From NCBI GenBank assembly GCA_006384855.1, contig VCJN01002221.1, positions 117,578 through 181,577 on the forward strand: a stretch of 64,000 nucleotides of DNA, read 5' to 3'. Of the stretch, positions 20,272-64,000 are shown in pieces. Source of the DNA: Tetraselmis striata (Eukaryota; Chlorophyta; Chlorodendrophyceae; Chlorodendrales; Chlorodendraceae). A model generated the notes under the pieces. The model was not told the DNA's origin. It did no database searches and was given only the letters and a program-made list of their open reading frames with translations. Positions within the stretch are counted from its first letter, which is position 1. The number at the start of each line of letters is the position of its first letter. Made by a program: the position numbers and the translations under genes.

Positions 20272-22074
20272 ATGAAGGAGGCATACGTGTCGGTGCTCGC
20301 TCCATCTCAGCTCGGCGTTGGCATTCCCGCGGGCGACTCTGTGCTCATCCACGGCGTCCGGCTCATCGCCGAGAAGCTTGGCCCACGTGCCGTCATCGTC
20401 CACACAGACCTTCGCAACGCTTACAACGAAGCATGGCGCCGCACCATCATCCAACGCCACATCGATTGCTCTCCACTACACCCTGTCATCCCTGCGCTCC
20501 TAGCCTCCCTCTCCACGGACTCGTATCTGGTCGTGGACGACCGGTCCGCCCCTCTGCGGTCGGAGGACGGCGTGCAACAGGGCGCACCTTTGGCCACGAC
20601 TTCCTTTTGCGTCGCGATTCACCCCGAGGTGCAGCAGTGTGATACCACGTTGGAGGTCAATGACGGGGCGGCGCGCTTCAACGCCGACGATGGAATTTTG
20701 GTGGGCCTTCCGGAGCACGTTTGGCCGGCTCTTCACGCCTTCCGCACGTCCATCAAGGCGTCCGTGGGGCTTGAGGTGCGCTTCGACAAGATGCAGGCGT
20801 ACAGCGCAGACATGGAGGCGGCGCGGCGTGAGGCTCCGGCCGACATCGAGTGGCCAGAGCTAGATGGCCATCACGGCATCGCGGTCCTCAACGTGCCGCT
20901 CGGATCGCCAGAGTATGTGCATGCGTACATGCGCGGCAAGGCGGAGGAGCTACGAGAGGAGGTGGACGCTAGCCTGAGCAAGCTTCTGTCTGCCAAGCCC
21001 AGCCGTCGGTACACCCACGCCTTGCATCACCACGCATGGGCCCTGCTCAAGCATTGCATGCAACACAAGGCGGGGTATTGGCTCCGCAATCGTCTTCCGT
21101 CCGAGGTGGAGGCCTTTGCGGAGGCGGTGGATGCCACCATCCTCGCGGCGGTCGAACGGGTGCTAGGGGTCTCTTTTGATCCCTCCACGTACGGCACCGA
21201 CACCAATCCGGTGGTCACCGATTTCTTGGCGGAGCTTCTGCACGACCCCGACCCCATGGCAGCGGAGGTGGCTACCTTGAGCGAGGATGCAGTGGCCAGG
21301 GCGCGCAGCAGGCTTCACCTCCCCACTCGATTGAAGGGAGCTGGCATCCGCCGCATGGCTGCCGTTCGTGATGCCGCCTTCATCGGCTGCATGAATGCCA
21401 TCCTCCCAAGGTTCCTGACTAGGAACTCCGGCACCAACACCCCCACCCCTGGTTTCTTCGACCCACAGCTCGGGTCCGTACTTGGCCGAGGCAGCTTCAA
21501 CGCAAATTCTTCCGCCCGCCAGTATGACCACTTCCTCAACGATGCTCATGGGTCGGACAGCTACGCCGCGGAGATGCGCGAGGCGTGGGGTCGCCTCCAA
21601 GCGGCTATTGCTGGCCATCTCGGCGACGCAGATGCACGCCAGATGGAGCGGGAAGTGGAGGCTGCGTCGGGCTCGCAAAAGGAGCTGACGGCATTTCTAG
21701 CCCAGGCCAACAACTCTCGGCTTCGAAATGAGGTGTGCGCTCTCCTTGCCACATGTAGGGAACGGATCTTGTTCAACCAGCTCGACGCGGCGTCAGGCAT
21801 GTGGACAGTGGCCATCCCCACCGCGCGGACAGCCATGACTCCGCATGAGCTGCGGGAGGTCGCTGCCGGGTACTTCTTTCTGCCTAGCCCGTGCTTGGCC
21901 CCGGTGGTTGGGTGCCTGATTATTCTGCCCTCGACGGAGCACAACCCCGTCATTGTTGATCTATACGGCGACGCGCTCATGAACCTCCCGGCGCCTGGAG
22001 ACGCTCACTGGCGTGTACAGCACGACGCTATCGCAGATGCCTTCCGCGACCACTGTGTTCACGACCTAAGCTAG
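20272..22074 (+). pseudogene. LINE reverse transcriptase (N-terminally truncated)
   Basis: A 600-residue frame. GVGIPAGDSVLIHGVR is followed by motif A (IVHTDLRNAYNEAWRR, catalytic Asp), motif B (GVQQGAPLATTSF) and motif C (FNADDG, ADD box). A thumb and an alpha-helical region follow. The fingers upstream of the GVGIP block are absent, so the copy is truncated and not competent on its own. The frame ends at TAG 22072-22074, just before the nuclease-like frame. Confidence 0.85.
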
Positions 22075-30810: not shown

Positions 30811-33800
30811 AATTAATTTACATCGGGGCTTTCACAAAAGTGCACTACAACAGAACTAACATCAACTATGAAAGGTTGCCAGCAAAAGAGAGACATAAGT
30901 CTGAAACCAAGGTCGAGCAGGAGGACAGGGAGCCAAGAACCAAGAAGGAGCCAAGGGAGCCACGAAGTCACTTAGCTGCCAGGAACTAAAGGAACCCCGC
31001 CCCGGGGTAGGCTATTAGGCGCGGCGAGGACGCTTGCAGCCAATGACCCGGGTCATAGCAACACATGCCGACGAGCGACGCGACGCAGGCGCAGGAGCAC
31101 CATCACGTGCCGCACGCGCGGCTGCGAGCCCGGCAAGAACGTTGTCTGCATGTGCCATGTTGATGAGCAAGGAGAAACGGCGGCGCCACGTAGACAAGAG
31201 CTGGCCGATTTTTTGGCCAGTGTGTGCTTGGCTAGGTTTCGCGAGCTGCACCAAGAAAGCCTCGGCGTGCGGGGCCAGCGAGCCAAACTCGGAAACGGCG
31301 AAAGGAACAAAGCGAAGCATGCCGGCAGCGTTTCGGACACCCTCGTCATACTTCTGGATTTCGCGGCGCTCTGCAGCCCGCAAAACAATCGTTGGATCCG
31401 AGGTTGACACGCCGAGGATAGGGGCAATGGATATCGACAGCAACCGTGTTTCCGCGGATGCCGCCATACCCAAAAAAGCCCAACATCGGCAGGCCGCCCG
31501 TCGCTGCCCTTCGGGAGAGAAACAAGCACCGACGGGTCCGTGAGGATCTGGTCACCCACGCCCAGCGCGGACTTCACGTCGTGGCAAATGTCGGAAAGGC
31601 CATGTGCCGCCCACTCGTGTGCGGCGTGATTGGAGTCGCCCCCAGAGCAACGTGCCACGTGATCAGCGTATGCGGCCGCCCAAGTTGAAGGAGTGAACTC
31701 CACGCCAGCATCCTCAAAACGGGCAAGCATACCTTGTACCGAGAAGGAGCAAGAAGCACAAGAGCATGGCCCGCCAACGGAGAGGACAAGAGCCGCCGGA
31801 AGGCCTAATGGGCGGCAAGCGGCAACACGGAACATGGAATCGTAGTACTCAGGGGAACGCTCACGGACCTCACCAAGGCGACCCTCACTTGGAGGATCAG
31901 TCACCAGGAACGCCGTCGCAGCGCGTAAGAGGCGGCCTCGGAAGCGGTTGCTGTCAGGGCCGCTTGTAGGCATACGCGCAGCAAGCTTGCTTTGCGAAAC
32001 GGACCGTGTGAATGCGGTGGCTCAGGGTTTCCTGTACTTTCCGCATGGAGTGCAAGGGGAAGTCCGAGTAATGCGGGATAGCTTGGAGGTCGGCCGCCGA
32101 GCGCATTGCAGACGCCGGCTCAGCCCCGGCGGCCGAGCAGCCGGCACGGGCAACGTTGGAGCGCTTGGAGGGGAGCAACTTTAGGGCAGAGGCCAACGGC
32201 CCCGCTAGATCTTCGAGCACCGCGTCTCCACACTCGTCAACGACACATGTATGAGCGGCACGAAGCTCGACTGCCCACATCGGCGCCGACGCGTTGGCGC
32301 CGGCAACGAGCTCCAACGTTGGGGTGGCCAAAGCCTGGTGGATCGAGGACGCCCCAACAAGGTAGAGGCTATGAGGGCTGGATACGCCGGACGGGTTGGA
32401 AAAGAACGCCCCGGCGTCGCTCAGGGTGGCGTGTTGAGCACGGAGGAAAGTCACAGCTTGGCCAACCACGAGGGCGGCAGCGCCGATGTGGGAGGCATCT
32501 GCTATAGCCACATTATCGCCGATGCCGAGGCCCCCAAATTGAACCGGGAGGTACAGTTGCGTGCGCATGGAGGGCGTATCCAAGAGGTCGGGGCTAACAC
32601 CCCATATGCCGGCAAGCGTTGTGTATGCTGCGGCGTCGGCATCTTCGAGGAAAGACGTAATAGTGTCGCCATACCCCTCGGATCGACCCAAGCCCCGAGG
32701 CGTGGAGCGGAGATGGTGGCCAAAACGACGGCCGCAAACTTGCAGCAAACGAGTAGCAGTGTGGGAGTGGAAGTGGTCTGCCAAACCGATAAGGTGGGAG
32801 CCGAATTGGCGAAATCTTTCGACCGTTTTGTCCAGCAGTTCCCGGGCGAAAATGGCCGAGCCCACAGGGGCACCAAGCACCTTGATTCCGGACGAGGAGA
32901 CAACAACACCATGCAACAAATGCCCGAAAGGAACGGCGCCGAACGGGGACGAAGAGCCAAGCTGACAATACGCCTGTCGTTTGCGAATGGTGACATTTAG
33001 CCCAACGGCGGCAAAAGCGGACGGGGCCACCCATGTAGCAAGCGCAAGTCCATCGCCAGTGCCGACAAGGTTGACGTCGTCTGAGAAAGCCGCCAACACT
33101 GAGTGACTGGGGGCAGCCGCGCCGATGCGAGCATACACTCGGGCAGCGACGGCGGCGATTAGGATGAGGCCGAGGACGCAACCCTGGCGGGCCCCTCGAC
33201 GGCTTGGAATCCGGAGAGAAGGACCGGGTTGGGAGCCGTCGAAAACGTACAGATTGGACTCTTGACCATAAAGCATGATCGCCGAACGCAATAGAGGCTG
33301 CCAAACATGGTCCTCGAGCAGTGTGCGGAACATTTCGGAGCGGTAGACGGAATTGAACGCGTTTTCGGCGTCAAGCTGCACCAAGACGAGGGATGGATCC
33401 GAGTCTAGGAGAGATCGCACAAGGAATTGAACTAGTTCCACGCCACCCTTAACGCCTTAACCGAAATGGCCGCGGGCGGCAAGCCATTGGGCGATGGGCT
33501 CGCCATGAGCGCGCAAGAGGACGCGCATAGCGGACCGGACAAGCACGCTGCCGATGCCAATGGGCCGAACGGACCCCTTCATGTCTCCGGCACTTGGTTC
33601 CAACGCATTGCGCTCCGCCGGCGTGAGCTTATCTAGGGGAACCAAGGTAGCGGAGGAAAGGAAATGGGCGACGCCAGCAGGGACCTCCGCATTCGCGATG
33701 GCCTCGGCTATGGCACGGAGGTGGGAGCGCGAGCAGAGGGCACGGAGAGCCTCGAAGCGAATGCCATCGAGGAATGGGGCAAAACCATTGGGGCTGCTGG

Positions 33801-40620: not shown

Positions 40621-41042
40621 CTAATCTTTCACAGTGACTGGCTTTCACCGGCAACTGTGCCCTTACGGTTTTGCCTGGCAACGTGACTCGCACTCTGTCT
40701 AATCGTTGTTAAGTACTTAACTGAGTTTAGTCAGACGACGGACCTAGTTGTGCGGTCAAACGACTACCAGCTGGAAAATGTAGCACAATAGCAAGTTATC
40801 GGCTCTGTCTAGAATCTTCCATGATGGGACAATGAGCAGCGGACTCGCGACCGCACCAGCTCCCGACATGTTTCCCTGCCTGCCTGCAGCTACTACTTAG
40901 CCAACTGTCTAGACCATAACGCTCATTTCTTTTGCTGTTGGGCTTCACGCACACACCCGTCCCACCCATCTTGTATGGTGTGGCGAGGGGCTTGTAAGAC
41001 AAGACACTCGCTTCTGGCAACGTGACTCGCACTCTGTCTAAC

Positions 41043-42885
41043 CGTCTTTTACGCCGGTTGGACGGGCATCCGGCGACCGATGCACCCCGAAACTCACCAA
41101 CACGCTACTCTACGCACCACCAATTCACTCCGCCAGCCCCGCCTCCATCCGCGTGGGAACCGGTAGTAAGTGTTGTTGTGTGCGCACATCGTGACAACAT
41201 TACACGGCGGGAATTGCAATTAGCGGTGGAAAATGTGAAGGCATTTTCGAAATCGACGGAGAATGAGGCGGAGGTTGCGGAGTGCATTGGCGGTATGGGT
41301 GCATAGAATAGCGTGTCCATGGGGTTTTGCCTGCATCGGACGCCGTATTCCCATCCATATCCGGCACGGAATGTCCGGTTTCACACATTTGTGTGTGACT
41401 ATAGTGTGAATATTCAGCGTCTTTTACGCCGGGTGCATGGGCATCCGGCGTCCGATGCATCCCGAATCTCACCAACACGCTAGTCTATGCACTGCCAATG
41501 CTCTCCGCCAGCCTCGCCTCCATCCGCGTGGAAATCGATAGTACGTGTTGTTGTGTGCGCACATCGTGACCACATTACACGGCGGGAATTGCAATTAGCG
41601 GTGGAAAATGAAGGCATTTTCGAAATCGACGGAGATTGAGGCGGTGCTGGCGGAGTGCATTGGCGGTGCATAGAATAGCGTGTTGCTGGGAGTTTGGCTG
41701 CATCGGACGCCGTATTCCCATCCATCCGGCACGGAATGTCCGGTTTCACACATTTGTGTGTGACTATAGTGTGAATATTCAGCGTCTTTTACGCCGGGTG
41801 GATAGGCATCCGGCGTCCGATGCACCCTAATTATTTGCAGCACGCTAGTCTATGCACCGCCAATTCACTCCGCCAGCCCCGCCTCCATCCGCGTGGGAAC
41901 CGGTAGTAAATGTTGTTGTGTGCGCACATCGTGACAACATTACCCGGCGGGAATTGCAATTAGCGGAGGAAAATGTGAAGGCATTTTCGAAATCGACGGA
42001 GATTGAGGCGGTGCTGGCGGAGTGCATTGGCGGTGCATAGAATAGCGTGTTGCTGGGAGTTTGGCTGCATCGGACGCCGTATTCCCATCCATCCGGCACG
42101 GAATATGTGGTTTTCACACATTTGCGTGAGAATATAGTGTGAATATTACACGTCTTTTACGCCGGGTGGATCGGCATCCGGCGTCCGATGCACCCCAAGT
42201 ATTTGCAGCACGCGACTCTACGCACCGCCAATTCACTCCGCCAGCCCCGCCTCCATCCGCGTGGGAACCGGTAGTCAGTGTTGTTGTGTGCGCACATCGT
42301 GGCCACATTACCCGGTGGGAATTGCAATTAGCGGTGGAAAATGTGAAGGCGTTTTCGAAATCGACGGAGAATGAGGCGGTGCTGGCGGAGTGCATTGGCG
42401 GTGCATAGAATAGCGTGTTGCTGGGAGCTTGGCTGCATCGGACGCCGTATTCCCATCCATCCGGCACGGAATGTCCGGTTTCACACATATGCGTGTGAAT
42501 ATAGTGTGAATATTACGCGTCTTTTACGCCGGGTGGATAGGCATCCGGCGTCCGATGCACCCCGAATCTCACCAACACGCTTGTCTACGCACCGCCAATG
42601 CACTCCGCCAGCCCCGCCTCTTTCCGCGCGCGTCCTACGTTGCATTGTATATATATACATACGTACATGTACTGCTCCGAAACCAGCCCACATGTCTTTT
42701 ACGCCGGGTGGATGGGCATCCGGCGTCCGATGCACCCAAATTATTTGCAGCACGCTACTCTACGCACCGCCAATGCACTCCGCCAGCCCCGCCTCTTTCC
42801 GCGCAAGTCATACGTTCCATCGTATGTATATACATACGTACATGTACTGCTCTGATACCAACCCAAACTTAATGAGTGCACAACT
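41043..42885. repeat. Tandem array of about 368-bp units, Element 1
   Basis: Unit starts (CGTCTTTTACGCC) fall at 41043, 41418, 41783, 42151 and 42518, with a short unit at 42693, giving periods 375, 365, 368, 367 and 175. Each unit contains CCGGCGTCCGATGC and its inverted form GCATCGGACGCCG, so it can fold on itself. The last two units are cut to about 180 bp and carry TATATACATACGTACATGTA. The array has no convincing coding capacity. Confidence 0.9.
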
Positions 42886-42892
42886 GTGAAAT

Positions 42893-43026
42893 GGGGGGGG
42901 GGGGGGGGGGGGGGAGGCGGGGCTACACTCACACATACCCCGGTCATGCATGACAGATATTCCAAGCCGTGGCGGGTCGGCGGGCCGACCCGGCGGGGGG
43001 TGGGGGGGGGGGGGGGGGGGGGGGTC
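42893..43026 (+). repeat. Poly(G) tracts flanking a short conserved segment
   Basis: A 22-G run at 42893-42914 and a longer interrupted G run ending at about 43024. The equivalent position in Element 2 (about 54791-54929) has G runs of other lengths, so these tracts change length quickly. Confidence 0.9.
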
Positions 43027-43152
43027 TATTCAACTACACGTGCGACAGGGTCGTTTCGTGGAGCAGTATATGTGCCCGGCCTCATTTATACCGCCCCCTA
43101 CCTGCGCTGCATGGTCCACCCCTACGAATTACTTAGCACAAACCGCCATTAC

Positions 43153-43872
43153 TTAATAGGAACCTAGCACAGCCAGGCTTACATTCCCGCTTTGGCGATC
43201 AACTTCTACGCACTTCCCGTCCCTCAGCCGCCGGACATGGGGGTTAAGCCGCCAGCGTCGGCAGTTGCTTAGCCAGACTTGGCATCCCGTACCGTATCCA
43301 TGGCTTCGCAGCTCTGCCGCCGGCACACGCCGAGTCCGGCGCCTGCTGCCGCCGGGTTGCGCACGCATGCACACACGGTAATACGCCGCCGACGCCGCCA
43401 CGCTTACTTCCACCACCTTCGCCAGCCGCAGCTTCGCACGCCGTTCCGCCGACATACGAAACGCACGAATCCCCCCCCCCCCCCCCCCCGGCCCCCGTTC
43501 CCGCGTCATGTATAATATATTCGAGGCGACTATGCGGGGCGCAGTACACGCCGCGGCGTGGGTCGGCGGAGCGGCGGTCGGCGGAGCGGCGGACGGCGGG
43601 AGCCCTAATGGCCGGGCAGTATCCACACCCACACCGGCACCGCCGCTCACCTCCGACGCGGATGAACCGCCTCCCAAAGGAAACATGCCGGTTGGTGGTA
43701 AGCGCAGCAGGCGTGGGGTGCCGGTGCCGGTACCTGTGCGACGGAGCTGTCGCGTCAGGAACCGCACCGCAACCACAACCGCACCGCATGTGGAGCAACA
43801 CATGGCGGTGCCGGCCCCACCTATGTCTAGGGCCACCTCCTCACAGCACCCCGCCACGACGGCGTCGGCCAC
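43153..43872 (-). pseudogene. Minus-strand ORF of Element 1
   Basis: A 239-codon frame with RAFRMSAERRAKLRLAKVVE, RRVPAAELRSHGYGTGCQVW and the end SLAVLGSY. The counterpart in Element 2 is 55060-55560. Near the stop the two copies differ by both silent and replacement changes. It lies downstream of the transposase on the same strand and may be its last part or a separate gene. No family recognised. Confidence 0.4.
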
Positions 43873-44447
43873 CGCCGACGGCGCCGTTGCGGGGGGGGGG
43901 GGGGGGGGGGGCGACCTGCCATGCGACGATGATGCGCCTGATGCGCCGCGTCAGGAGGCAGAGGAGGCCGTGGTTGAGGCGACTGATAGGGCTGAGAGGG
44001 TTAGTTGTCGAGGCGAGCGAGGCTGCGCTCGCGCCACCCGCCCCGCAGCCACCTGCGTGACATGCCGACTTGCTCGTCGCCATGTCGACCGGAGCACTAC
44101 GAGCAGTGGTGGGAGGCGGCCACATGCACTATCATGTGCGTGTTCTGGCCGAACGCCCGTCATGCGTGTACTGCGGCCAACGGACGGACTGGGAGTGTTG
44201 CTGCGACGGCACCCCGGCTTTGTACGGCCCCAAGTACCCATGCATGGCGACCCATCAGCGGGCAGTCCCCTGCCCGACCACGGCCGCGGTGAGGGCGGAG
44301 TTCCGCCATGTCAGGGACGCCTTCCACGACGCGACTCGCGCCGCCGTGTGTGAGGCTTCCGAGAAGGCACGCGCGGCTGGTAGGGTGCGCAAGGTGAGGC
44401 GGCGGACGGCCCGGGAGATGATGGAGAGCGAGACATGCCTTCTGTGA
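43508..44447 (+). pseudogene. Plus-strand Cys-rich accessory ORF, Element 1
   Basis: Starts MYNIFEATMRGAV, continues through a Pro/Ala/Thr-rich linker, a basic RRSCRVRNRT patch and an acidic EAEEAVVEATDRAE helix. After a change of frame it ends in a cysteine module: PSCVYCGQRTDWECC, then GPKYPC and H. The C-x2-C...C-x-C...C...H order resembles small zinc domains at the ends of piggyBac-type proteins, but no match beyond that is claimed. A G run in the middle is longer than in Element 2 and may explain the frame change. Confidence 0.5.
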
Positions 44448-44786
44448 GGTCGGGTGCAATGATATTGGGTGGGGTACACGGGCGTGTAACACTTGCACTT
44501 TGCGCGTACGGCTCGGTTACATCTAGGCGGCGTCACACTATGCAACCGGAAAGGCTGCGTTGCTACTGCAAACGGTGCTACGCCTCACTCGGTAGCAACC
44601 GCTGCCCCGCCTACCCCACAGCTGCTGCCCCCCCCCCCCCCCCCCACCCTCGCGCACCGTCCTGCGACCTCGCGTGGATCCCCGCCACCAGCAGCTCCTT
44701 GGCGTCGACGCCCAAGTCAGCAGCATTCGCGGAGGACATGTGGGCATGTGCCATGAGAACAGCCACCTTGCGGATGCCCGGACCGT

Positions 44787-45479
44787 CTAGGAGGACAAGG
44801 GCCTCCTCCCCGCCGCAACCACCGCCACCGCCCGCCGGCACTCTCCACAAGTCCAAGCCCACGGCAGTGTGGGCTCGTTCCAGCGTCCACACCGTACACA
44901 ATGCTGCCCTATGGGCCGCGCGCTGGCATGGTTGTCGTCCGAGTCAGCCCCCGGCGGGGGCGGCGGCGTGTTAAGGTAGAAGTGTTGAGCTCGCGCGACC
45001 ATGGTGGTGTACTTGGCGTCTTCGCGCGCTCCGCCAGCAGGCATGCGGATAAACCTGTCGGCATTGCACTCCGGGTAGTGCTGGTCGGGGAGGTTCGCCC
45101 ATCCGCCAGCCTTCCCGGGCGCCCCGCTGAACGCCACGCACCCCTTGGGGCATGTGCCGGACATATCTGGATGTATTAGGCACATGCATGCATCGGGAGG
45201 GGAGGAGCGTGAGGGGCCTGACACCCCAAGACACGCCGCGTCAAGCACGCACCCATGCAGACATCCCTGCCGTACCCGCAGGAACTTCCGCATCGCCTCG
45301 TGGCTGCGTGGCACGGCCATCCCACCCCAGGTAAAGCCGGCGGGCATGATGTCATGCAGCAACTGCCAGTCGCTATCAGCGGAGTTGTTGGAGTTCTTGC
45401 TCTTCACATGGGCCGAGCACTTCATGACTGCAAACGTGAGGGCATTCGTGTCGGACCCCGGCACAGCAGCGGACTCCAC
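44787..45479 (-). pseudogene. CMC transposase segment, Element 1
   Basis: Encodes DIMPAGFTWGGMAVPRSHEA, MRKFLRV, then a Cys-rich block (ACMCLIHPDMSGTCPKGCVA, HYPECNADRFIRMP). An LP/VPRSHEAM...L start followed by C-x-C...HPD...CP-x-GC and C-x4-RF is typical of the N-terminal zinc region of CACTA/Plavaka-type transposases. Element 2 has lost this segment, where the 30-bp minisatellite now lies. Confidence 0.55.
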
Positions 45480-46387
45480 GCCCGGAGGTGCGCCGCCTCC
45501 TCCTCCTCCTCCTCATCGCTCGTCCACCCGGCGCCAGCCCCCCCCCCCCCTTCCCAGCCCTCCTCTTCAGATTCACTGGACTGGTCATCGCCTTCATGGA
45601 CGGTTGCCAGGCGAGCCTCCCCGTCCGCATCCACAGGGGGGTGCTCATGGGCAGCCGCCATAGCCTCCACAACCTGCCACGCCGACCGGGCGGGTGCGTG
45701 TGATTCCATACAACCGCAGGTGACTGGTGCCACCAGCACACATGCCGGGCCCACTCACCTCTGAACGCAGAAGGTCCACAATGTCACCGTCCTCGAAAAC
45801 AGCGCGCCACTGGGTCGCCCCGCCGTAGTCCTCCAACACCCACTCGGTAGTGACGCCTGTTATCACGCCGTAGTGCCATACTCCCCGGAACTTCTTGGCG
45901 ATGACCTTCATGTAGAAGTCACCGGGATCGCCTTCCCGTATCACGCCCTCATCGGCGGCTTCCACGCCCGCCGGCGGCCACGCATGCGCGTCGATGTCCA
46001 TACCGTCTCCGTCCCCCCCACGCCCATCACATCGTCCTCCTTCGAGCCGCCGTCGTCCGAGACCGGCGCCGGCGGGCCGTTTCCAACGGCTGCAGCTACT
46101 CATGCTGACGCCCCTGCTGCTGTTGTTGTTGCTGTTGCTGCTGCCGCCCCTGTTGCTGCTGCTTGTGATAAGGCGGCCTTGCGGCGCAACTTAGCCGCAC
46201 GCTTCAACGAGTGGCTACAGTTCGGGTGTTTTAGGAAGTGCTGCTCTCGCGCCGTCACTACTTCAAGTCACCCAGCCCTGGCAGTGCTTGCATGTGTACA
46301 CGCCATCCTGCGACACACTCGATATCCATCCCTTTCCCGGCATGCATGCTGCCGCGCGCGGGGGGCAGGGGGGGGTGAGAGTTGGGG
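45480..46387 (-). pseudogene. Transposase N-terminus, Element 1 (Tudor-like and BED-like)
   Basis: Reading leftwards from the right: an incomplete BED-like zinc region, an Ala/Gln-coded microsatellite, then DFYMKVIAKKFRGVWHYGVI, WRAVFEDGDIVDLLRSEV (a Tudor/PWWP-like barrel signature G...K.F.G...FEDGD) and an acidic DDQSSESEEE linker. The counterpart in Element 2 is 58710-59609. The 5.1-kb insertion at 46388 falls just upstream of the BED region and so separates it from its promoter. Confidence 0.6.
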
Positions 46388-46450
46388 GGGTACATGGCAC
46401 ATTTTTGAGTCAAAACGGTCCAATTCCTGGACTCAAAAATGTGCCCCCCA
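46388..46450 (+). repeat. Left TIR of the 5.1-kb element
   Basis: Contains GGCACATTTTTGAGTC and GACTCAAAAATGTGCC around an 18-bp spacer, so the TIR is itself a hairpin. It matches 51422-51483 in reverse complement. Confidence 0.75.
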
Positions 46451-48590: not shown

Positions 48591-48600
48591 TCACCAACAT

Positions 48601-48792
48601 GCGCCGGCCGCCGCGCGTTGGCGCCGCGCTGCGCCGGCCGCCGCGCGTTGGCGCTGCGCTGCGCCGGCCGCCGCGCGTTGGCGACCCGCTGCGCCGGCCG
48701 CCGCGCGTTGGCGCCCCGCTGCGCCGGCCGCGGGGCGTTGGCGCCCCGCTGCCCCTGCCGCGGCGCGTTGGCGCCCCGTTGCCCCGGCCGCG
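48601..48792. repeat. 30-bp GC-rich minisatellite, about 6.4 units
   Basis: Unit pattern GCGCCGGCCG-CCGCGCGTTG-GCGCCGCGCT. It is nearly the same unit as the larger array at 57246-58022 in Element 2. All frames are open because the unit has no stop, so frames across it mean nothing. Confidence 0.9.
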
Positions 48793-51421: not shown

Positions 51422-51483
51422 AGGGGGGTGCAATTTTGAGTCCAGAAATGTGCCCATTTTGACTCAATAATCGCCCTTTTTCC
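51422..51483 (-). repeat. Right TIR of the 5.1-kb element
   Basis: Reverse-complement partner of the left TIR, with CCCCCC, TTTTGAGTCCAG and TTTTGACTCAA in the same order. Confidence 0.75.
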
Positions 51484-52384
51484 GAGTTGGGGGTGGATGT
51501 AACCCACCACCGGCAGGCAGCAGAGATGCGAGTGCGCGGCTGTCCGCACTTGGTTCAGCGGTGAGCGGCGGTGACCATGAGGCGACCCCGTACTTCATGC
51601 GCGTGCTGGGGCGTTACACAATCATCAACAGTTAGGGCGGCTGCATTAAAACGCGCACCTACGAACACCACCTACCGCCTACCACCAACCGTACCACCTA
51701 CATTCGCCCACACCTCCGCCCGTCGTGCCGCACAACGCCGCACAACGTGCCGCACATCGCCGCACAACGGGGGGTCAGCGATGTGCATCGATGTCACTGT
51801 GAGATTCAGATGTGACATACAGGTGACGAAGCACTACTACTAGCGACTATTATTTATCCGTGAAGGCTGCTGCTGGTGGCGGCACGTCCATCCAGTTACG
51901 TGCGAGTACATCCGGCGTTATTGCCGGCGGGCGATAAATCCTTTTTGTCATCATTCTGTTAGTCGTACCAGCCCGGTGAAGCGTACATGGCACTGACATA
52001 CAAGGTACAAGGTTGTCCGTGTAGTACCGGGTAGTACGCGATATATTTATGACGCCGGTACCGGGGATGTAGTACCCGGTACCCGGTACCCGGGCACGAA
52101 CCCTAGTCGTCCTGTGGATAAGTACGACTATTAGTACATGGGAGCGCAAATCGCAGCCGTACGTATTTGGTAACACTGGGGAATTTGCAGTACTAGTACT
52201 GCTGATCGGGCCTGCCAGCCGTCCGATCAAAGGTCATCAGATGGGCGGTTTGGCTGCCATGTTTTGCCAAAGAGTGCTCACGTTACATAAATATTCGCGA
52301 GGGGGAGGGCGGGGGCAGGCAGCGGTTTGCCGAAGAATGATTGAATTACAATATTCGCGACAGCTGCCATCGGGGGATGTGGCC

Positions 52385-52492
52385 CGGGGGGGGGGGGGGG
52401 GGGGGTGCGGGGGCGGGGGGACCACGCCCGCCCCGCCCCCCCCCGCCCCCCCTCGCCGCCAGCCGCTCCCGCCTGGGGGGGGGGGGGGGGGG
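52385..52492 (+). repeat. G and C homopolymer cluster
   Basis: Closely spaced G and C runs of up to about 20 bp. Larger G runs occur at 53116-53139 and 53141-53161 in the same element. Lengths differ from the equivalent tracts of Element 3 at 62969-63045 and 63693-63737. Confidence 0.9.
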
Positions 52493-52508
52493 GTAAAGGG
52501 GGCGGGGG

Positions 52509-53264
52509 CTACTGCTTGTTCTTGTTCTTGCGTGCCCGGGGGACCCTCCGCTTCGACGATCTCGCTGCCTCCGCCTCCGCCTCCGCCTCCGCCTCCGCCT
52601 GCGCCTCCGACTCCGCCTCCGACTCCGCGACCGTCAGTTTCTTACCTCGGCGTTTCTTCACTGGCCTCTTCCGCTTCTTGTCATCCGTCAGTGTCTTCAC
52701 CACCCCGGGAGGCTGTGCCGTCGACGACGCCGCCATGAGCTTCCTTACCTTGGCGTCGGGACGCCCCCTGTGCCCAGACACCCACAACAAGCCACAATCG
52801 TTTCGCCTTTAAGCGGCTGAGGATGCGGCCTCCTCGGCCACCACGAGTTGCGCCGCTGGCACTGTGGAAGCCTTGGCGTTGAGGTGGGCCTTACGGCGCT
52901 CCCGGACGAACCTGCGCGCGGCACAAGTTAGCCACGAGTGGGTGCGTGCTAATGCGGAGGATGGAGTGTTTTGTTGCGCGCCCACCTTGTCACGGGTTTC
53001 CTCATGTCTTTCTCGTCCTCCTCGATGCCGGCGGCGCGGACACGCGAGACAACAAGGCTCGCCGCCCACTTTTGCCCGGGGGGGCGAGGTCGGCCATGGC
53101 GCTGTGAGCGGTGAAGGGGGGGGGGGGGGGGGGGGGGGGCGGGGGGGGGGGGGGGGGGGGGCGGCCGAGGTGGAGAAACTAACACCCAGTCGACGACCGC
53201 CTTCCGCAGCAGTCAACGACACATCGGAGGCGAGGAGCAGCGCGCCACTACTATTTATATGCAC
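52509..53264 (-). pseudogene. Basic/acidic protein ORF at the left end of Element 2
   Basis: Transcribed toward the left end. 53264-52809 has a Pro-coded G/C run, VSRVRAAGIEEDEKDM in one frame, RERRKAHLNAKASTVPAAQL, and VVAEEA. 52790-52509 ends DDKKRKRPVKKRRGKKLTVA, a Glu/Ala/Ser repeat and RRVPRARKNKNKQ, a strong nuclear-localisation composition. Small indels separate the parts. The copy in Element 3 (about 63100-63750) shows the same order. No domain recognised. Confidence 0.5.
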
Positions 53265-53394
53265 GTATTGTCAAGAGCTAGTCGGTGCGGCATTGTGTCG
53301 GTGTAATTTCGCAATGTTTATTGTTGAAGTAGCACGGCGTAATGGATACGGCGAGTGAATCCGGGATAATGTGTGCGACGAATGTGCGCGCGCA

Positions 53395-53530
53395 GCGGTG
53401 TGCGGCGGTGTGCGGCGGTGTGCGGCGGTGTGCACCGATGTTAATATAGTGTGAATATTATATCGGCCGTAGACGATCAGGTCTGGCAGCACCGCCCGTG
53501 CTTGTAAATAAGCGACAATGGGTCTAGTCT
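53395..53530. other. TGTGCGGCGG microrepeat and array lead-in
   Basis: Several copies of a 10-bp GGTGTGCGGC unit at about 53396-53434, followed by AATATAGTGTGAATATTAT, a diverged form of the motif that precedes each array unit. Confidence 0.6.
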
Positions 53531-54785
53531 CCCGCTAGTCTGTGCACCGCAAGTGCACTCCGCAAGCCTCGCCTCCATCCGCGTCGGAACCGGTAGTAAG
53601 TGTTGTTGTGTGCGCACATCGTGACAACATTAAACGGTGGCAATTGCAATTATTAGCGGTGGATAATGTGAAGGCGTTTTCGAAATCGACAGAGAATGAG
53701 GCGGTGCTGGCGGAGTGCATTGGCGGTGCACAGAATAGCGTGTTGCTGGGGTTTTGGCTGCATCGGACGCCGTATTCCCACCCATCCGGCACGGAATGTC
53801 CGGTTTTCACACATTTGTGTGTTAATAAAGCAGTGTGAATATTACGCGTCTTTTACGCCGGGTGGATGGGCATCCGGCGTCCGATGCACCCCAATTATTT
53901 GCAGCACGCTACTCTACGCACCCCCAACGCACTCCGCAAGCCTCGCCTCCATCCGCGTCGGAACCGGTAGTAAGTGTTGTTGTGTGCGCACATCGTGACA
54001 ACATTACACGGCAATTGCAATTAGCGGTGGACAATGTGAAGGCGTTTTCGAAATCGACAGAGAATGTGGCGGTGCTGGCGGAGTGCATTGGCGGTGCACA
54101 GAATAGCGTGTTGCTGGGGTTTTGGCTGCATCGGACGCCGTATTCCCACCCATCCGGCACGGAATGTCCGGTTTTCACACATTTGTGTGTTAATAAAGTG
54201 TGAATATTACGCGTCTTTTACGCCGGGTGGGTGGGCATCCGGCGTCCGATGCACCCCAATTATTTGCAGCACGCTACTCTACGCACCCCCAACTCACTCC
54301 GCAAGCCCCGCCTCCATCCGCGTCGGAACCGGTAGTAAGTGTTGTTGTGTGCGCACATCGTGACAACATTACACGGTGGCAATTGCAATTACCGGTGGGT
54401 AATGTGAAGGCGTTTTCGAAATCGACAGAGAATGAGGCGGTGCTGGCGGAGTGCATTGGCGGTGCACAGAATAGCGTGTTGCTGGGGTTTTGGCTGCATC
54501 GGACGCCGTATTCCCACCCATCCGGCACGCACGGAATGTCCGGTTTTCACACATTTGCGTGTGAATATATATAGTGTGAATATTACGTAGGCGTCTTTTA
54601 CGCTGGGTGGATGGGCATCCGGCGTCCGATGCACCCCGAATCTCACCAACACGCTACTCTACGCACCCCCAACGCATTCCGCCAGCCCCCCCTCTTTCCG
54701 CGCAGGTCCTACGTTCCATTGTATGTATATACATACGTACATGTATTGCTCCGAAACCAGCCCAAACTTTATGAGTGCACAAGTG
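53530..54785. repeat. Tandem array of about 368-bp units, Element 2
   Basis: Unit starts fall at 53847, 54212 and 54592 (periods 365 and 380), with a partial unit before and a 180-bp unit after. Sequence and internal inverted motifs are as in the Element 1 array, but with fewer units. Units of Element 2 share variants (CAATTGCAATTA after GTGGC) not found in Element 1, so the arrays evolve within each element. Confidence 0.9.
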
Positions 54786-55059
54786 TAAATGGGGGGGGGG
54801 GGGGGGGGGTGGGGGGGGGGATGTGGCGGCGGGGCATCCACTCACACATACCCCAGCGATGCATGACAAATATTACATGCCGTGGCGGGTCGGCGGGCCG
54901 ACCCGGCGGGGGGGGGGGGGGGGGGGGGGCGTCTATTCAACTACACGTGCGACAGTGTCGTTTCGTGGAGCAGTATATGTGCCCGGCCTCATTTATACCG
55001 CCCCCTACCTGCGCTGCATGGTCTACCCCTAAGAATTACTTAGCACAAACCGTCATTAC

Positions 55060-55560
55060 TTAATAGGAACCTAGCACAGCCAGGCTTATATGCCCGCTTT
55101 CCCGATCAACTTCTACGCACTTTCCGTCCCTCAACCGCCGGACATGGGGGTTAAGCCGCCAGCCTCGGCAGTTGCTTAGCCAGACTTGGCATCCCGTACC
55201 GTGTCCATGGCTTCGCAGCTCTGCCGCTGGCACACGCCGAGTCCGGCGCTTGCTGCCGCGGGGTTGCGCACGCATGCACGCACGGTAATACGCCGCCGAC
55301 GCCGCCACGCTTACTTCCACCACCTTCGCCAGCCGCAGCTTCGCACGCCTTTCCGCCGACATACGAAACGCACGAATCCCCCCCCGTCCCCGCGTCATGT
55401 ATATTATATTCGAGGCGACTATGCGGGGCGCAGCACACGCCGCGGCGTGGGTCGGCGGAGCGACAGGCGGCGGGAGCCCTAATGGCCGGGCAGTATCCAC
55501 ACCCACACAGGCACCGCCGCTCACCTCCGACGCGGATGAACCGCCTCCCAAAGGAAACAT
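55060..55560 (-). pseudogene. Minus-strand ORF of Element 2
   Basis: Counterpart of 43153-43872, ending at the same SLAVLGSY. It shares AERRAKLRLAKVVEVSVAAS and GTGCQVWLSN. The upstream part differs because a G/C run present in Element 1 is collapsed here. Confidence 0.4.
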
Positions 55561-56292
55561 GCCGGTTGGTGGTAAGCCCAGCAGGCGTGCGTGGGGTGCC
55601 GGCGCCGGTACTGGTGCGACGGAGCTGTCGCGTCAGGAACCGCACCGCATGTGGAGCAACACATGGCGGTGCCGGCCCCACCTATGTCTAGGGCCACCTC
55701 CTCACAACACCCCGCCACGACGGCGTCGGCCACCGCCGACGGCGCCGTTGCGGGGGGGGACGCCCTGCCAGGCGACGATGATGCGCCTGGTGCGCCGCGT
55801 CAGGAGGCAGAGGAGGCCGTGGTCGAGGCGACTGATCGGGCTGAGGGGGTTGTCGAGGCGAGCGAGGCTGCGCTCGCGCCACCCGCCCCGCAGCCACCTG
55901 CGGGACATGCCGACTTGCTCGTCGCCATGTTGACCGGAGCACTACGAGCAGTGGCGGGAGGCGGCCACATGCACTATCATGTGCGTGTCCTGGCCGGACG
56001 CCCGTCATGCGTGGACTGCGGCCAACGGACGGACTGGGAGTGTTGCTGCGACGGCACCCCGGCTTTGTGCGGCCCCAAGTACCCATGCATGGCGACCCAT
56101 CAGCGGGCAGTCCCCTGCCCGACCACGGCCACGAAGAGGGCGGAGTTCCGCCATGTCAGGGACGCGTTCCACGACGCGACTCGCGCCGCCGTGTGTGAGG
56201 CTTCCGAGAAGGCACGCGCGGCTGGTAGGGTGCGCAGGGTGAGGCGGCGGACGGCCCAGGAGCTGAAGGAGAGCGAGACATGCCGTCAGTGA
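55397..56292 (+). CDS. Plus-strand Cys-rich accessory ORF, Element 2
   Basis: Begins MYIIFEATMRGAAH in one frame and continues in the next from about 55591 to the 56292 stop (233 codons open). The C-terminal module SCVDCGQRTDWECC, GTPALCGPKYPC, H is intact here, followed by a basic helix (RAAGRVRRVRRRTAQEL). One frame change near 55590 separates the N-terminal piece. Function unknown; a small zinc-binding DNA or protein interaction module is the likeliest reading. Confidence 0.5.
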
Positions 56293-56299
56293 GGTCGGG

Positions 56300-57240
56300 C
56301 GCAATGTCATTGGGTGGGGCACACGGACGTGTAACACTTGCACTTTGCGCGTACTGCTGGGTTACATCCAGGCTGCGTCACACTATGCAACCGGAAAGGC
56401 TGCGTTGCTACTGCAAACAATGCGACGCCTCACTCTGTAGCAACCGCTGCCGCGCCTATCCCACAGCCGCTGCCCCCCCCCCCCCCCCCCCCCCCGCGCG
56501 GGATCCCCGCCATCAGCAGCTTGCACTTGCACTTTGCGCGTACTGCTGGGTTACATCCAGGCGGCGTCACACCGGAAAGGCTGCGTTGCCACTGCAAACG
56601 ATGCTACGCCTCACTCGGTAGCAACCGCTGCCCCGCCCATCCCACTCGGGATGCTGAGAGCAGCTAAAGGGCACCGGGGGCGGGGCAAGAGGGAGCAGGG
56701 CCAATGATTGTGGAAGAGCGGGGACCCGCTTGCATGCCATCGTATTATATCTTGCACAATATCTGTTGCTGCACTCATATCTCACATCACTAGCTTAGCT
56801 ATAGTGATTCCCCCCCCCCCCCCCCCCCCCCCGCACTGCGTACGCACAAGCCTGGGTATACGCATCAACTGCCCGCCGGGATGAGAAACTGGTATTGGTA
56901 GTGTGTCTGTGGGGTGGAGGGGGGGGGGCAAAAGAGCTGCCAATTGCTGCCAAGCTGGTGCGTTACATTGGGGCAGGCGCTGGGCAGACAATTGGGGCTC
57001 GCTTCAGAGCATTGTCTAGTGCCTATGCGGCTGCGCCGCCTCCGCCGCATGCAGACTCTGCGGGCTCACCAGCACCGCCACCTCAGTCATGCGGCCCTGC
57101 ATCCCGCAGCCCGCCGCCGTCAGCCAGATCAGAGGTATCCAGAAGCCAGTGCTGGGGTTGTTGCGGCATGACCGCATAGTTTTCAGCGGCTGCCGTCCAC
57201 AGCTTGTAATGCATCCCTTTCCGCCGATTCCGCTGTATGC
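56300..57240. other. Spacer with an internal duplication and poly(C) runs
   Basis: TTGCACTTTGCGCGTACTGC with the sequence after it appears at about 56337 and 56527, separated by a C run at about 56474-56495. A 23-C run is at 56810-56832. The equivalent stretch of Element 1 (44450-44790) is much shorter. Confidence 0.6.
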
Positions 57241-57245
57241 GCTGT

Positions 57246-58022
57246 CTTAAAGCCGCGCTGCCCCGGCCGCCGCGCCTTGGCGCCGCGCTGCCCCGGCCGC
57301 CGCGCCTTGGCGCCGCGCTGCCCCGGCCGCCGCGCCTTGGCGCCGCGCTGCCCCGGCCGCCGCGCCTTGGCGCCGCGCTGCCCCGGCCGCCGCGCCTTGG
57401 CGCCGCGCTGCCCCGGCCGCCGCTGTCTTGGCGCCGCGCTGCCCCGGCCGCCGCTGTCTTGGCGCCGCGCTGCCCCGGCCGCCGCGCCTTGGCGCCGCGC
57501 TGCCCCGGCCGCCGCGCCTTGGCGCCGCGCTGCCCCGGCCGCCGCTGTCCTTGGCGCCGCGCTGCCCCGGCCGCCGCGCCTTGGCGCCGCGCTGCCCCGG
57601 CCGCCGCGCCTTGGCGCCGCGCTGCCCCGGCCGCCGCGCCTTGGCGCCGCGCTGCCCCGGCCGCCGCTGTCTTGGCGCCGCGCTGCCCCGGCCGCCGCTG
57701 TCTTGGCGCCGCGCTGCCCCGGCCGCCGCTGTCTTGGCGCCGCGCTGCCCCGGCCGCCGCTGTCTTGGCGCCGCGCTGCCCCGGCCGCCGCTGTCTTGGC
57801 GCCGCGCTGCCCCGGCCGCCGCTGTCTTGGCGCCGCGCTGCCCCGGCCGCCGCTGTCTTGGCGCCGCGCTGCCCCGGCCGCCGCTGTCCTTGGCGCCGCG
57901 CTGCCCCGGCCGCCGCGCCTTGGCGCCGCGCTGCCCCGGCCGCCGCGCCTTGGCGCCGCGCTGCCCCGGCCGCCGCGCCTTGGCGCCGCGCTGCCCCGGC
58001 CGCCGCGCCTTGGCGCCGCGCG
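57246..58022. repeat. 30-bp GC-rich minisatellite, about 25 units
   Basis: Unit CCCCGGCCGC-variable-TTGGCGCCGCGCTG. Three variants by the middle bases (A = GCGCC, B = GCTGTC, C = GCTGTCC, 31 bp) are ordered 5A 2B 2A C 3A 7B C 4A, the block pattern expected from local unequal exchange. The array sits where Element 1 has a transposase segment. All frames are open, so long frames here are not genes. Confidence 0.95.
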
Positions 58023-58039
58023 GGGTATCGAGTCCTCCC

Positions 58040-58700
58040 CTCCCTAGTGAGCGCGTCCACCTGCGCCTTGCGCTCGGGGCCGTCCTCCTCCGTCACCACA
58101 TTCTGCAACCCCCACCGCGTGACGAACCACGCAGCTCCTTGCATGCGCTTGTACATGTGCCCAAGCACCGCCTAGGGACGCGAAGCTCCTTCTCGGTCAT
58201 GATCGCCTTCACCCGGGCCTCCTCGAGCAGCGGACCGGCGTTAAGAATGGAAAACGTTTCCATGTGGTGCAAGCAGTCCTCCATGACCCAGCCGGACTGC
58301 ACCGTCACCTTGCCTGACCCTGCAGTCATGGAGGGGAATGCCGTCACGCCCACGCCCACGCCCACGCCCACGCCCGGGGGGGGTGGGGGGGGGGTTACCT
58401 TTCGATTCTTGGACACTGCAAACGAAGGGCGCAACCCGCGTTCAAAGTTGCTGGGTATCGGGACTAAAGCCTGGCGCCGGTCTTCCTGCTTCATAGCTCG
58501 GAATCCAATGTGGCCCTGCACGGTGACAAATTTCCTCCATAAGTCCCTTCCCAAGCCAAAAAAAAACAGGTGGAACGGCGCGAGGGGGAAGAGGTTGATC
58601 ATGCTGACATAGCCCAGGACCACATGCACATGGCACACGCCATGGCAGCCAGTGTTCTGCTTGGCCTCCGCCAGCCGGGTTGTGTTGAACGCACGCCGGG
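58040..58700 (-). pseudogene. CMC transposase core fragment, Element 2
   Basis: Minus-strand pieces read INLFPLAPFHLFFFGLGRDL, RKFVTVQGHIGFRAMKQEDR, GWVMEDCLHHMETFSILNAG, then HMYKRMQGAAWFVTRWGLQN next to the minisatellite. The PFH-x-FF-x-GL-x-RDLW box resembles the conserved P-x-H-x-x-x-x-G-x-x-(K/R)D motif of CACTA/Plavaka-type DDE transposases. The fragment is cut short by the minisatellite and has several frame changes. Confidence 0.6.
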
Positions 58701-58709
58701 CAAGGTGCG

Positions 58710-59609
58710 TGATTCACTGGACAAGTCATCGCCTTGATGGACGGTTACCAAGCGAGCATCCCCGTCCGCATCCACAGGGGGGTGCTCCTGGGCAGCCGCC
58801 ATAGCCTCCACAACCTGCCACGCCGACCGGGCGGGTGCGTGTGATTCCATACAACCGCAGTTGAGTGGTGCCACCAGCACGCAGGCCGGGCCCACTCACC
58901 TCTGAACGCAGAAGGTCCACAATGTCACCGTCCTCGAAAACAGCGCGCCACTGGGTCGCCCCGCCGTAGTCCTCCAACACCCACTCGGTAACGACGCCGG
59001 TTATCACGCCGTAGTGCCATACTCCCCGGAACTTCTTGGCGATGACCTTCATGTAGAAGTCGCCGGGATCGCCTTTCCATATCACGCCCTCATCGCGGGT
59101 TCGACGCCCGCCGGCGGCCACGCAGGCGCGTCGATGTCCATACCGTCTTCGCCAACGGGGTCCTCCCCCACGCCCATCACATCGTCCACCTTCGAGCCGC
59201 CGTCGTCCGAGACCGGCGCCCGCGGGCCGTTTCCGACGGCTGCAGCTACTCCTGCTGCCGCGCTTGTTGCTGCTGTTGCTGCTGCTGCTGCTGCCGCCCC
59301 TGCTGGTGCTGCTTGTGATAAGGCGGCCTTGCGGCGCAACTTAGCCGCACGCTTCAACGAGTGGCTACAGTTCGGGTATTTCCGGAAGTGCCGCTCTCGC
59401 GCCGTCCTTTCACTACTACCCGTCACGATGCCGTGGCAGTGCTTGCATGTGTACACGCCATCCTTCGACACACTCGCTATCCATCCCTTTGCCGGCATGC
59501 CTGCTGCCGCGCGCGGGGGGCGGGGGGGGGGTTGAGAGTTGGGGTGGATGTAACCCACCACCGGCAGGCAACACAGATGCGAGTGCGCGGCTGTCCGCGC
59601 TTGATTCAA
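58710..59609 (-). pseudogene. Transposase N-terminus, Element 2 (BED-like and Tudor-like)
   Basis: Starting at 59609 or at the Met of MPAKGWIASVSKDG: a BED/C2H2-like finger (VYTCKHCHGIVTG then RERHFRKYPNC), a Lys/Arg-rich helix, an Ala repeat, then in another frame DFYMKVIAKKFRGVWHYGVI and QWRAVFEDGDIVDLLRSEV. BED fingers bind the ends of their own transposon in several superfamilies; the Tudor-like barrel may read chromatin. Both modules are also present in Element 1. Confidence 0.6.
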
Positions 59610-60073
59610 CGGTGAGCGGCGGTGACCGTGAGGCGACCCCGTACTTCATGCGCGTGCTGGGGCGTTACACAATCATCAGCAGTTAGGGCGGCTGCATTAA
59701 AACGCGCACCTACGAACACCACCTACCGCCTACCACCTACCGTACCACCTACATCCGCCCACACCTCCGCCCGTCGTGCCGCACATCGCGGCACACCGCG
59801 GCGATGTGCAGCGATGTGCAGCGAGTACTTGCAGCCGCCTGTACTTAGCCCGGGTACTCCGCGTCGGCGGGCGACACGCGAGCCCGCGTGCGCATATCAA
59901 TTTGATGAAATTATGGAAACGAGAAATTCATATAGTACTTTACAGGTCGCGCGCGATAGTCGTCGCTACTGGGTATGAAATCCACGTCCCTCGTCCGTCC
60001 CGTATCGTCCCCGTATGTCGTCGTTCGTCACCAGTAGGGCACATTTACGTCACATCTGAATCTCACAGTGTGT

Positions 60074-60328
60074 GCAGCGAGTACGTGCATCCGCCTGTGC
60101 TTAGCCCGGGTGCTCCGCGTCGGCGCGCGACACGCGAGCCCCGCGTGCGCATATCAATTTAATGAAATTATCGAAACGAGAAATTCATATAGTACTTTAC
60201 AGGCCGCGCGAGATAGTCGTCGCTACTCGGTATGAAATCCACGTCCCTCGTACGGTCCCGTATCGTCCCCGTATGTCGTCGTTCGTCATTAGTAGGGGAC
60301 ATTTACGTCACATCTGAATCTCACAGTC
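60074..60328 (-). mobile_element. Right terminal piece of Element 1
   Basis: Near copy of 59816-60070 (period about 256), ending CACATCTGAATCTCACAGT. It is the displaced right end of Element 1 after Element 2 inserted, not a simple tandem duplication. Confidence 0.8.
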
Positions 60329-62382: not shown

Positions 62383-64000
62383 TCACTGTGAGATTCAGAT
62401 GTGACATACGGGTGACGAAGCACTACTACTGCGACTATTATTTATCCGTGAAGGCTGCTGCTGGTGGCGGCACGTCCATCCAGTTACGTGCGAGTATATC
62501 CGGCATTATTGCCGGCGGGCGATAAATCCTTTTGTCATCATTCTGGTAGTCGTACCAGCCCGGTGAAGCGTGACATGGCACTGACGTATAAGGTACAAGG
62601 TTGTCCGTGTAGTACCGGGTAGTACGCGATATATTTATTAAGCCGGTACCGGGTATCTAGTACGAACCCGGGCACATGACTAGTGGTCCTGTGGAGACTA
62701 CGACTATTAGCACATGGGGAGCGCAAATCGCAGCCGTACGTTTTGTAACACTGGGGAACTTTGTGTACATTATAGTAGTACTGCTGAAACGGGCCTGCCA
62801 GCCGTCCCGATCAAAGGTCATCAGATGGGCGGTTTGGCTGCCATGTTTTGCCAAAGAGTGCTCACGTTACATAATATTCGCGAGGGGGAGGGCGGGGGCA
62901 GGCAGCGGTTTGCCGAAGATGTTTGAATTACAATATTCGCGACAGCTGCATCGGGGAATGTGGCCCCCGGGGGGGGGGGGGGGAGGGCGGGCGGGGCGTG
63001 GTCCCCCCGCCCGCCCCGCACCCCCCCCCCCCCCCCCCCCCCCCGCCGCTCCCGCCGGGGAGTGAGGGGAGGGGGTAAGGGGGCGGGGCTACTGCTTGTT
63101 CTTGTTCTTGCGTGCCCGGGGGACCCTCCGCTTCGACGATCTCGCTGCCCTCCGCCTCCGCTCCGCCTGCGCCTGCGCCTGGCCTCCGACTCCGCCTCCG
63201 ACTCCGCGACCGTCAGTTTCTTAACCTCGGGCGTTCTTCACTGGCCTCTTCCGCTCTTGTCATCCGTCAGTGTCTTCACCACCCCGGGAGGCTGTGCGTC
63301 GACGACGCCGCCATGAGCTTCCTTACCTTCGCGTCGGGACGCCCCCTGTGGCCCAGACACCCACAACAAGCCCACAATCGTTTCGCCTTTAAGCGGCTGA
63401 GGATGCGCCTCCTCGGCCACCACGAGTTGCGCCGCTGGCACTGTGGAAGCCTTGCGTTGAGGTGGGCCTTACGGCGCTCCCGGACGAACCTGCGCGCGGC
63501 ACAAGTTAGCCACGAGTGGGTGCGTGCTAATGTGGAGATGGAGTGTTTTTGTTGCGCGCCACCTTGTCACGCGTTTCCTCATGTCTTTCTCGTCCTCCTC
63601 GATGCCGGCGGCGCGGACACGCGAGACAACAAGGCTCGCCGCCCACTTTTGCCCGGGGGGGCGAGGTCGGCCATGGCGCTGTGAGCGGTGAAGGGGGGGG
63701 GGGGGGGGTGGCGCGGGGGGGGGGGGGGGGGGGGGGGCCGAGGTGGAGAAACTAACACCCAGTCGAGCGACGACCGCCTTCCGCAGCAGTCAACGACACA
63801 TCGGAGGCGAGGAAATATATACAGTGTTTTGTGACAGATATAATACATTTGCGTGTGAATATATATAGTGTGAATATTACGTACGCGTCTTTTACGCTGG
63901 GTGGATGGGCATGCATCCGGCGTCCGATGCACCCCGAATCTCACCAAACACGCTACTCTACGCACCCCCACGCACTCCGCCAGCCCCGCTCTTTCCGCGC
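62383..64000 (-). mobile_element. CMC/CACTA-like Element 3, left part
   Basis: Starts CACTGTGAGATTCAG and follows Element 2 from 51795 to about 53235, then jumps to the 368-bp array at about 63850 and runs off the window. It lacks about 300 bp found between gene and array in Element 2. Compared with Element 2 it has many one-base differences in homopolymers, which break the minus-strand basic ORF repeatedly. Confidence 0.78.

Follow-up and report, generated by a model that had tools for sequence, protein, structure and literature searches.

A 64,000-nucleotide stretch of the Tetraselmis striata genome (assembly GCA_006384855.1, contig VCJN01002221.1, positions 117,578 to 181,577 of the forward strand), referred to here as the window, was compared with itself, and three copies (A, B and C) of one transposon family were found. 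An earlier note on this DNA had assigned all three a common plan: shared ends, a leftward basic open reading frame (ORF), an internal tandem array of self-complementary units, a plus-strand Cys-rich ORF and a leftward transposase. The plan was complete in copy B only, as A lacked the left end and the basic ORF, and C was cut by the window edge and contained a single array arm (Table 1). A and B are decayed derivatives, each of which keeps different transposase pieces and has different internal deletions. Taken as a whole, the copies are best explained as decayed members of an EnSpm/CACTA-like cut-and-paste family with an inherited hairpin satellite, an explanation that we regard as likely.

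Table 1. Features of the three transposon copies, with positions in the window. TIR, terminal inverted repeat; TSD, target-site duplication; AF2, AlphaFold2.
Feature	Position	Strand	Remark
Copy A, in pieces	41043-46390, 51484-51794, 60071-60328		no left end, no basic ORF
Array of copy A, 4.3 units of 368 bp, then 175-bp partial duplication	41043-42865	.
Transposase-like fragment in A, not B (CPKGCVAF...YPECNADRF)	44808-45455	-	no Pfam match
Copy B, end-complete	51795-60070		only copy with all parts of the plan
TSD TGT, left copy	51792-51794	.	empty-site alignment
Left TIR of copy B, CACTGTGAGATTCAGATGTGA	51795-51815	+	21/21 identical to right-end reverse complement
Basic Lys/Arg/Glu-rich ORF part, left end of B	52512-52751	-	translation
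Four 10-bp tandem GCGGTGTGCG-type motifs	53395-53433	+	just upstream of B array
Array of copy B, 3.1 units of 368 bp	53555-54702	.	units are imperfect inverted repeats of 91-97 bp
Cys-rich ORF (CVDC..CCCDG..LC..C..H)	55576-56289	+	no Pfam match at cut-off
GC-rich minisatellite, 30 bp	57252-58021	.	adjoins B-only transposase fragment
Transposase-like fragment in B, not A (APFHLFFFGLGRDLWRKF...)	58096-58713	-	no Pfam match at cut-off
Intron, 85 bp, GTGAGT..GCAG	58815-58899	-	same place in A, 45674-45758
Tudor-like / small-barrel-like region (FEDGDIVDLL)	58900-59094	-	AF2 model; no significant Foldseek match
BED-like C2HC region, MPAKGW..CKHC..RHFRKYPNC	59298-59498	-	translation; no zf-BED profile match
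Right subterminal cluster of GCGATGTGC-type motifs	59781-59819	.
Right TIR of copy B	60050-60070	-	21-bp perfect match with left
TSD TGT, right copy	60071-60073	.	empty-site alignment
Remainder of copy A right end	60071-60328	.	beyond B
Copy C, left end to window edge	62384-64000	.	92.4% to B over 1464 columns, then array arm

Ends, target site and nesting of the copies

Termini of the sequence CACTGTGAG were located at 51795 (+), 60062-60070 (-) and 62384 (+), so that the shared ends described earlier were recovered at both sides of B, where they extend to 21 identical bp, and at the left of C. The left end of C was the same as that of B, and the right end of A was the same except for its last base. 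The terminal 9-mer occurred four times in the window against 0.46 expected by shuffling (0/100 shuffles reached four); the fourth occurrence, at 10492, was isolated. The element ends read CACTG..CAGTG.

Copy B is nested in the right subterminal region of A, its older relative, and an apparent 257-bp tandem duplication at 59815-60327 is made up of the right end of B and, beyond it, what is left of the right end of A. The empty site was rebuilt by joining the flanks of A with one TGT and was then aligned to the right region of B. This alignment contained 358/409 identical columns and 30 gap columns, none of them at the junction, with the nearest gap ending 17 bp to the left of it. Because the joined flanks align across the junction to the right end of B, the TSD reads as TGT, 3 bp.

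To the left of B, copy A is also interrupted by 5.1 kb between 46390 and 51484 (approximate boundaries). This insertion has GAGTTGGGG on either side, a flanking repeat of about 9 bp, as in Mutator-like elements. Close to its two ends lie the arms of an imperfect inverted repeat of 49 bp (46401-46449 and 51423-51471, 81.6%), and it contained tandem repeats of 247, 187, 158 and 30 bp. A GC-rich 30-bp minisatellite inside it, at 48600-48791, was similar to that of copy B (82-90% alike). Copy C jumps from the equivalent of B position 53236 to the last array arm; the window ends past that arm, and the transposase region of C falls outside it. Over 1.4 kb (62384-63813), C differed from B by 27 indels, of which 20 were single-base, and A differed from B by 13 over 2.7 kb. 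The excess in C reflects either decay or errors of sequencing close to the edge of the window.

Remnants of coding sequence

Read from the right end, the minus strand of the element contained a BED-like stretch, a stretch with FEDGD, an 85-bp intron and an acidic exon, after which the copies diverge. The BED-like stretch was in frame with MDIDAPAW in B, and the 65-aa FEDGD stretch, which ends in FEDGDIVDLLRSE, was in frame with MDIDAHAW in A. Splice sites (GTGAGT, CAG) were kept in both copies immediately after the FEDGD stretch, and one protein stretch was 95% identical. The B-only transposase-like piece includes APFHLFFFGLGRDLW, and the flanks of both the A-only and the B-only piece align between the copies. 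By eye, these fragments contain CxxC and His. The CPKGC..CNADRF stretch of A may resemble the CPxxC..CxxxR region of plant CACTA transposases. When the two copies are aligned, the reading frames are seen to be broken by gaps of 10, 5 and 2 bp in A and by a 1-bp gap in B, the latter between the BED-like and FEDGD regions. What had been read as a leftward transposase is present as minus-strand BED-like and FEDGD ORFs and is intact in neither A nor B.

Pfam scans were carried out on nine element ORFs and one other ORF at E<=1, and on nine trimmed pieces at E<=10. The BED-like region, whose C2HC spacing was judged by eye, did not match the zf-BED profile, and the one match listed for it was Prok-RING_2 (E 0.08, below cut-off). 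For the 65-aa FEDGD piece, no Pfam family was listed at E<=10, the Tudor profile included. The best E-value among the trimmed pieces was that of DUF2011 (0.0039) to the Lys/Glu-rich basic ORF; this match, at 17.6 bits vs. a cut-off of 29.4, was put down to composition. Structure prediction of the FEDGD region with AF2 from the pair of A and B sequences gave five strands with a pLDDT of 72.6 and a pTM of 0.50, and four other models of the region had mean pLDDT values of 45.6-62.6. Foldseek comparison of the model to the PDB gave 0 matches at E<=0.001. Among the best 50 of 251 matches, the first was a ribosomal chain (E 0.41), an SH3 design ranked 5 and a SETDB1 tudor ranked 26 (E 1.5). The predicted fold suits a small SH3-like barrel, with a Tudor identity unproven. 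Single PDB sequence matches of the Tudor-like and B-only pieces (CCDC61, E 0.052, and glutamate racemase, 1.3) were rejected as noise. Of the BED-like and Tudor-like modules proposed in the earlier note, the sequence stretches and the five predicted strands stand, and neither a profile nor a significant fold match accompanies them.

These results bear on the possibility that both readings arose by chance from open frames in decayed, GC-rich DNA. In its favour, the window is rich in long open frames, the pieces have no Pfam match at cut-off and no significant fold match, and substitutions show no clear synonymous bias. The conservation of splice sites in A and B right after the FEDGD stretch, the 95% identical protein stretch and the five-strand model of moderate confidence argue against it, and we place chance on the unlikely side while still taking it seriously.

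The plus-strand Cys-rich ORF of the earlier note was found in B, and its version in A has a stop. The leftward basic ORF was likewise found in B; it was frameshifted in C and absent from A. A long minus-strand frame (55063-55632) faces the start of the Cys-rich ORF, is open in A too (43156-43950) and had no Pfam match.

The 368-bp array and its motifs

Tandem Repeats Finder reported a period of 368 at 41043-42628 (4.3 copies, 90% matches) and at 53555-54702 (3.1 copies, 93%), confirming in A and B the array of self-complementary units noticed earlier. The arms of the seven hairpin units were 91-111 bp long, and 71-83 positions in them were matched. Identity was 89.4-93.7% for pairs of one A and one B unit, 89.0-94.1% for pairs of A units and 93.4-97.7% for pairs of B units, among which B1 and B2 were 97.7% alike. 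The last units of the two arrays, A4 and B3, formed the top A-B pair at 93.7%, compared to 89.6-90.2% for B3 and the other A units, and CTCTTTCCGC was confined to these two last units. Since A4 and B3 share this end-unit subtype, the array was present already in the common ancestor of A and B, before their split.

Alternatively, the element may have captured an independent genomic satellite, most of which lives elsewhere. Captured arrays in CACTA elements have been described in the accessible text of a published study (PMC8978399), and the array of A begins abruptly at 41043 beside unrelated DNA with a direct repeat of about 28 bp. However, 17/18 window matches to a 20-base unit core (<=3 mismatches) lay inside the copies, so that within this window the array is not mostly found outside the elements, and the end-unit subtype is common to A and B. 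An independent satellite is unlikely on these grounds. The direct repeat itself (CTGGCAACGTGACTCGCACTCTGTCTAA, 40675-40702 and 41014-41041) stops one base before the start of the array, hinting at a rearrangement that took the left end of A.

The predicted RNA fold of one unit had an energy of -161.5 kcal/mol vs. a mean of -102.8 kcal/mol in 100 shuffles (z -10.7), a strength that follows from the inverted repeat itself. Covariation was not found among the seven units: three pairs were changed on both sides vs. 2.6 in shuffles (274/500 as high), and pairing was retained at 93.4% vs. 93.2% in shuffles, a comparison with little power at seven units. Pairing kept only to the level of shuffles gives no sign that the hairpin was selected, and hairpin RNA function was dropped as the leading view. 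No RNA families were found in the window at gathering scores.

Clusters of GCGRTGTGC-type motifs were observed ahead of the array and close to the right end, in few copies and with the motif picked after the data were seen. The pattern RCGNTGTGC, also chosen after looking, had 23 matches in the window, 19 of which were within the copies (four in the A array, three in the B array, four before the B array and four at each of the A and B right ends). Every inner array unit (7/7) contained one ACGATGTGC, which is similar to the GCGATGTGC of the right subterminal cluster. The left-right k-mer product was reached in 126/500 shuffles for 7-mers and in 1/500 for 8-mers, a hint of left-right sharing of 8-mers. 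With B removed from the right end of A, the target TGT of B is the core of CGATGTGC. This target site, with a T before it, falls just outside RCGNTGTGC, and we treat its position inside CGATGTGC as a lead only.

Placement of the family and neighbouring features

According to the accessible text of a survey of these elements (PMC12730594), CA..TG ends and 2-5-bp TSDs are usual in the CMCT clade, and CAC..GTG ends with a 3-bp TSD are consistent with EnSpm. The ends, TIRs and 3-bp TSD described here share this likeness, and the combination of CAC..GTG ends and a 3-bp TSD supports an EnSpm/CACTA assignment. The copies are thus likely to represent a divergent, new EnSpm/CACTA-like (CMCT clade) family in decayed form, with this likelihood given for the explanation as a whole. 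The CMC-type call made earlier agrees with the ends and the TSD and finds no transposase profile to accompany it, either of its own or of another superfamily. Deletion derivatives are a likeness to soybean CACTA elements, for which divergent subterminal motifs and a 3-bp TSD are also described (PMC2613891, accessible text). Unlike EnSpm/CACTA elements, the copies have pieces lacking a Pfam match, a BED-like plus Tudor-like N-terminus and a large mid-element hairpin array.

Several observations weigh against this placement. No element piece had a Pfam match at cut-off, with Transposase_21, zf-BED and Tudor all unlisted, where the pieces scanned were broken fragments only. Neither the catalytic D, D, E nor the C(2)C/H(3-4)H signature could be placed in the transposase-like fragments, and the B-only fragment folded poorly (pLDDT 64.9, pTM 0.28). 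Substitutions between copies showed no clear synonymous bias in any frame, in a comparison with little power; lack of a clear purifying signal is expected of dead copies. The TSD comes from a single insertion in a stretch resembling the 10-bp repeats, where a chance 3-bp match is easier. The number of 7- and 8-mers common to all three of the pre-array region, the unit and the right end was not above chance (2 vs. 2.3 and 0 vs. 0.17). Units within A were no more alike than units of A and B (ranges above), so that homogenisation is visible only in B.

Another lineage, be it a CMCT branch that has diverged, Lanisha for instance, or a superfamily not yet described, could have acquired CACTG ends and a 3-bp TSD by coincidence. 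Chapaev elements have a 4-bp TSD, and the TSD here fits 3 bp. The absence of Pfam matches at cut-off for the transposase pieces would suit another lineage, as would the generality of CA..TG ends and 2-5-bp TSDs among CMCT lineages, but CAC..GTG ends with a 3-bp TSD are the published EnSpm combination, and the termini of PlavakaA/B (TGT..ACA or CATCA..TGATG) and the TA TSD of ESTA differ from the CACTG..CAGTG ends and the TGT observed here (PMC12730594, accessible text). We consider such a coincidence improbable.

The view in the earlier note that the array and the Tudor-like barrel could not be placed in any described family goes too far for the array, since CACTA elements with satellite arrays inside them have been published from Chenopodium (PMC8978399, PMC7320549, both as accessible in part). 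There, as here, a tandem satellite array is carried in, or began from, a CACTA-like element. The Chenopodium array lies near the 3' end, with a related monomer of 171 bp in C. sosnowskyi (PMC8978399, same text), whereas the array here is mid-element with 368-bp inverted-repeat units; it is a type of feature already known, in a new form. Tetris, a foldback DNA transposon of Drosophila virilis, also carries internal repeats, but these sit within its TIRs (PMC4079207, accessible text), and the element here has a TIR of 21 bp and an internal array. The same view may hold for the Tudor-like module. In the accessible text on Gypsy-10_Ec32 of Ectocarpus, a Tudor domain is called the first in any transposable element to those authors' knowledge (PMC12477816). 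That element also comes from an alga, but it is a retrotransposon with a C-terminal Tudor (same source), whereas the unproven Tudor-like region here is N-terminal and in a DNA transposon. Literature searches combining Tudor with CACTA, EnSpm, transposase or DNA transposon found no Tudor domain in a DNA transposon in print, most subscription papers being outside their reach. The words "Tudor" and "BED" are absent from the main text of PMC12730594, and among the papers listed by a search on BED in CMC transposases none had "BED zinc finger".

Within the EnSpm/CACTA-like family, A and B are non-autonomous deletion derivatives, and C also carries a deletion and frameshifts. A transposase from an intact copy elsewhere would bind the ends, excise the element and join it to a target cut with a 3-bp stagger. 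DNA binding would be aided by the BED-like N-terminus, and the FEDGD region may act in chromatin binding or in contacts between proteins. The hairpin array would be a passenger satellite, its length changing by unequal exchange, and the unit hairpin most likely survives from an inverted duplication of long ago and is not a working RNA. The ACGATGTGC motifs of the inner units could possibly serve as extra binding sites. A functional array, which would feed or evade silencing as double-stranded RNA or act as a binding platform for a DNA-binding protein that guided B into the motif cluster of its relative, draws on the strong unit fold, the TGT target in CGATGTGC and the one ACGATGTGC per inner unit, but is distinctly unlikely given a fold that follows from the inverted repeat, no covariation, one insertion, a post hoc motif and three-way k-mer sharing at chance.

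If the Tudor-like region is real, a chromatin reader in a DNA transposon would make chromatin-guided insertion testable outside retrotransposons. The hairpin array in a CACTA-like element offers a clean case of satellites riding in transposons. It is very unlikely, although worth stating, that an EnSpm-like transposon here combines a Tudor-type chromatin reader with a motif, placed in subterminal clusters and array units, that guides copies into their relatives and spares host genes.

Protein and exact DNA-pattern scans of viral and prokaryote genome contigs found no relatives, which is expected for a eukaryotic element and uninformative on its spread. The window itself has a eukaryotic look, given the intron of the element, long G/C homopolymers and two reverse transcriptase-like ORFs. 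These ORFs, at 20257-22071 (+; RVT_1, E 0.0054) and 31957-33456 (-; E 1.4e-05), both below the curated cut-off, probably belong to retroelements.

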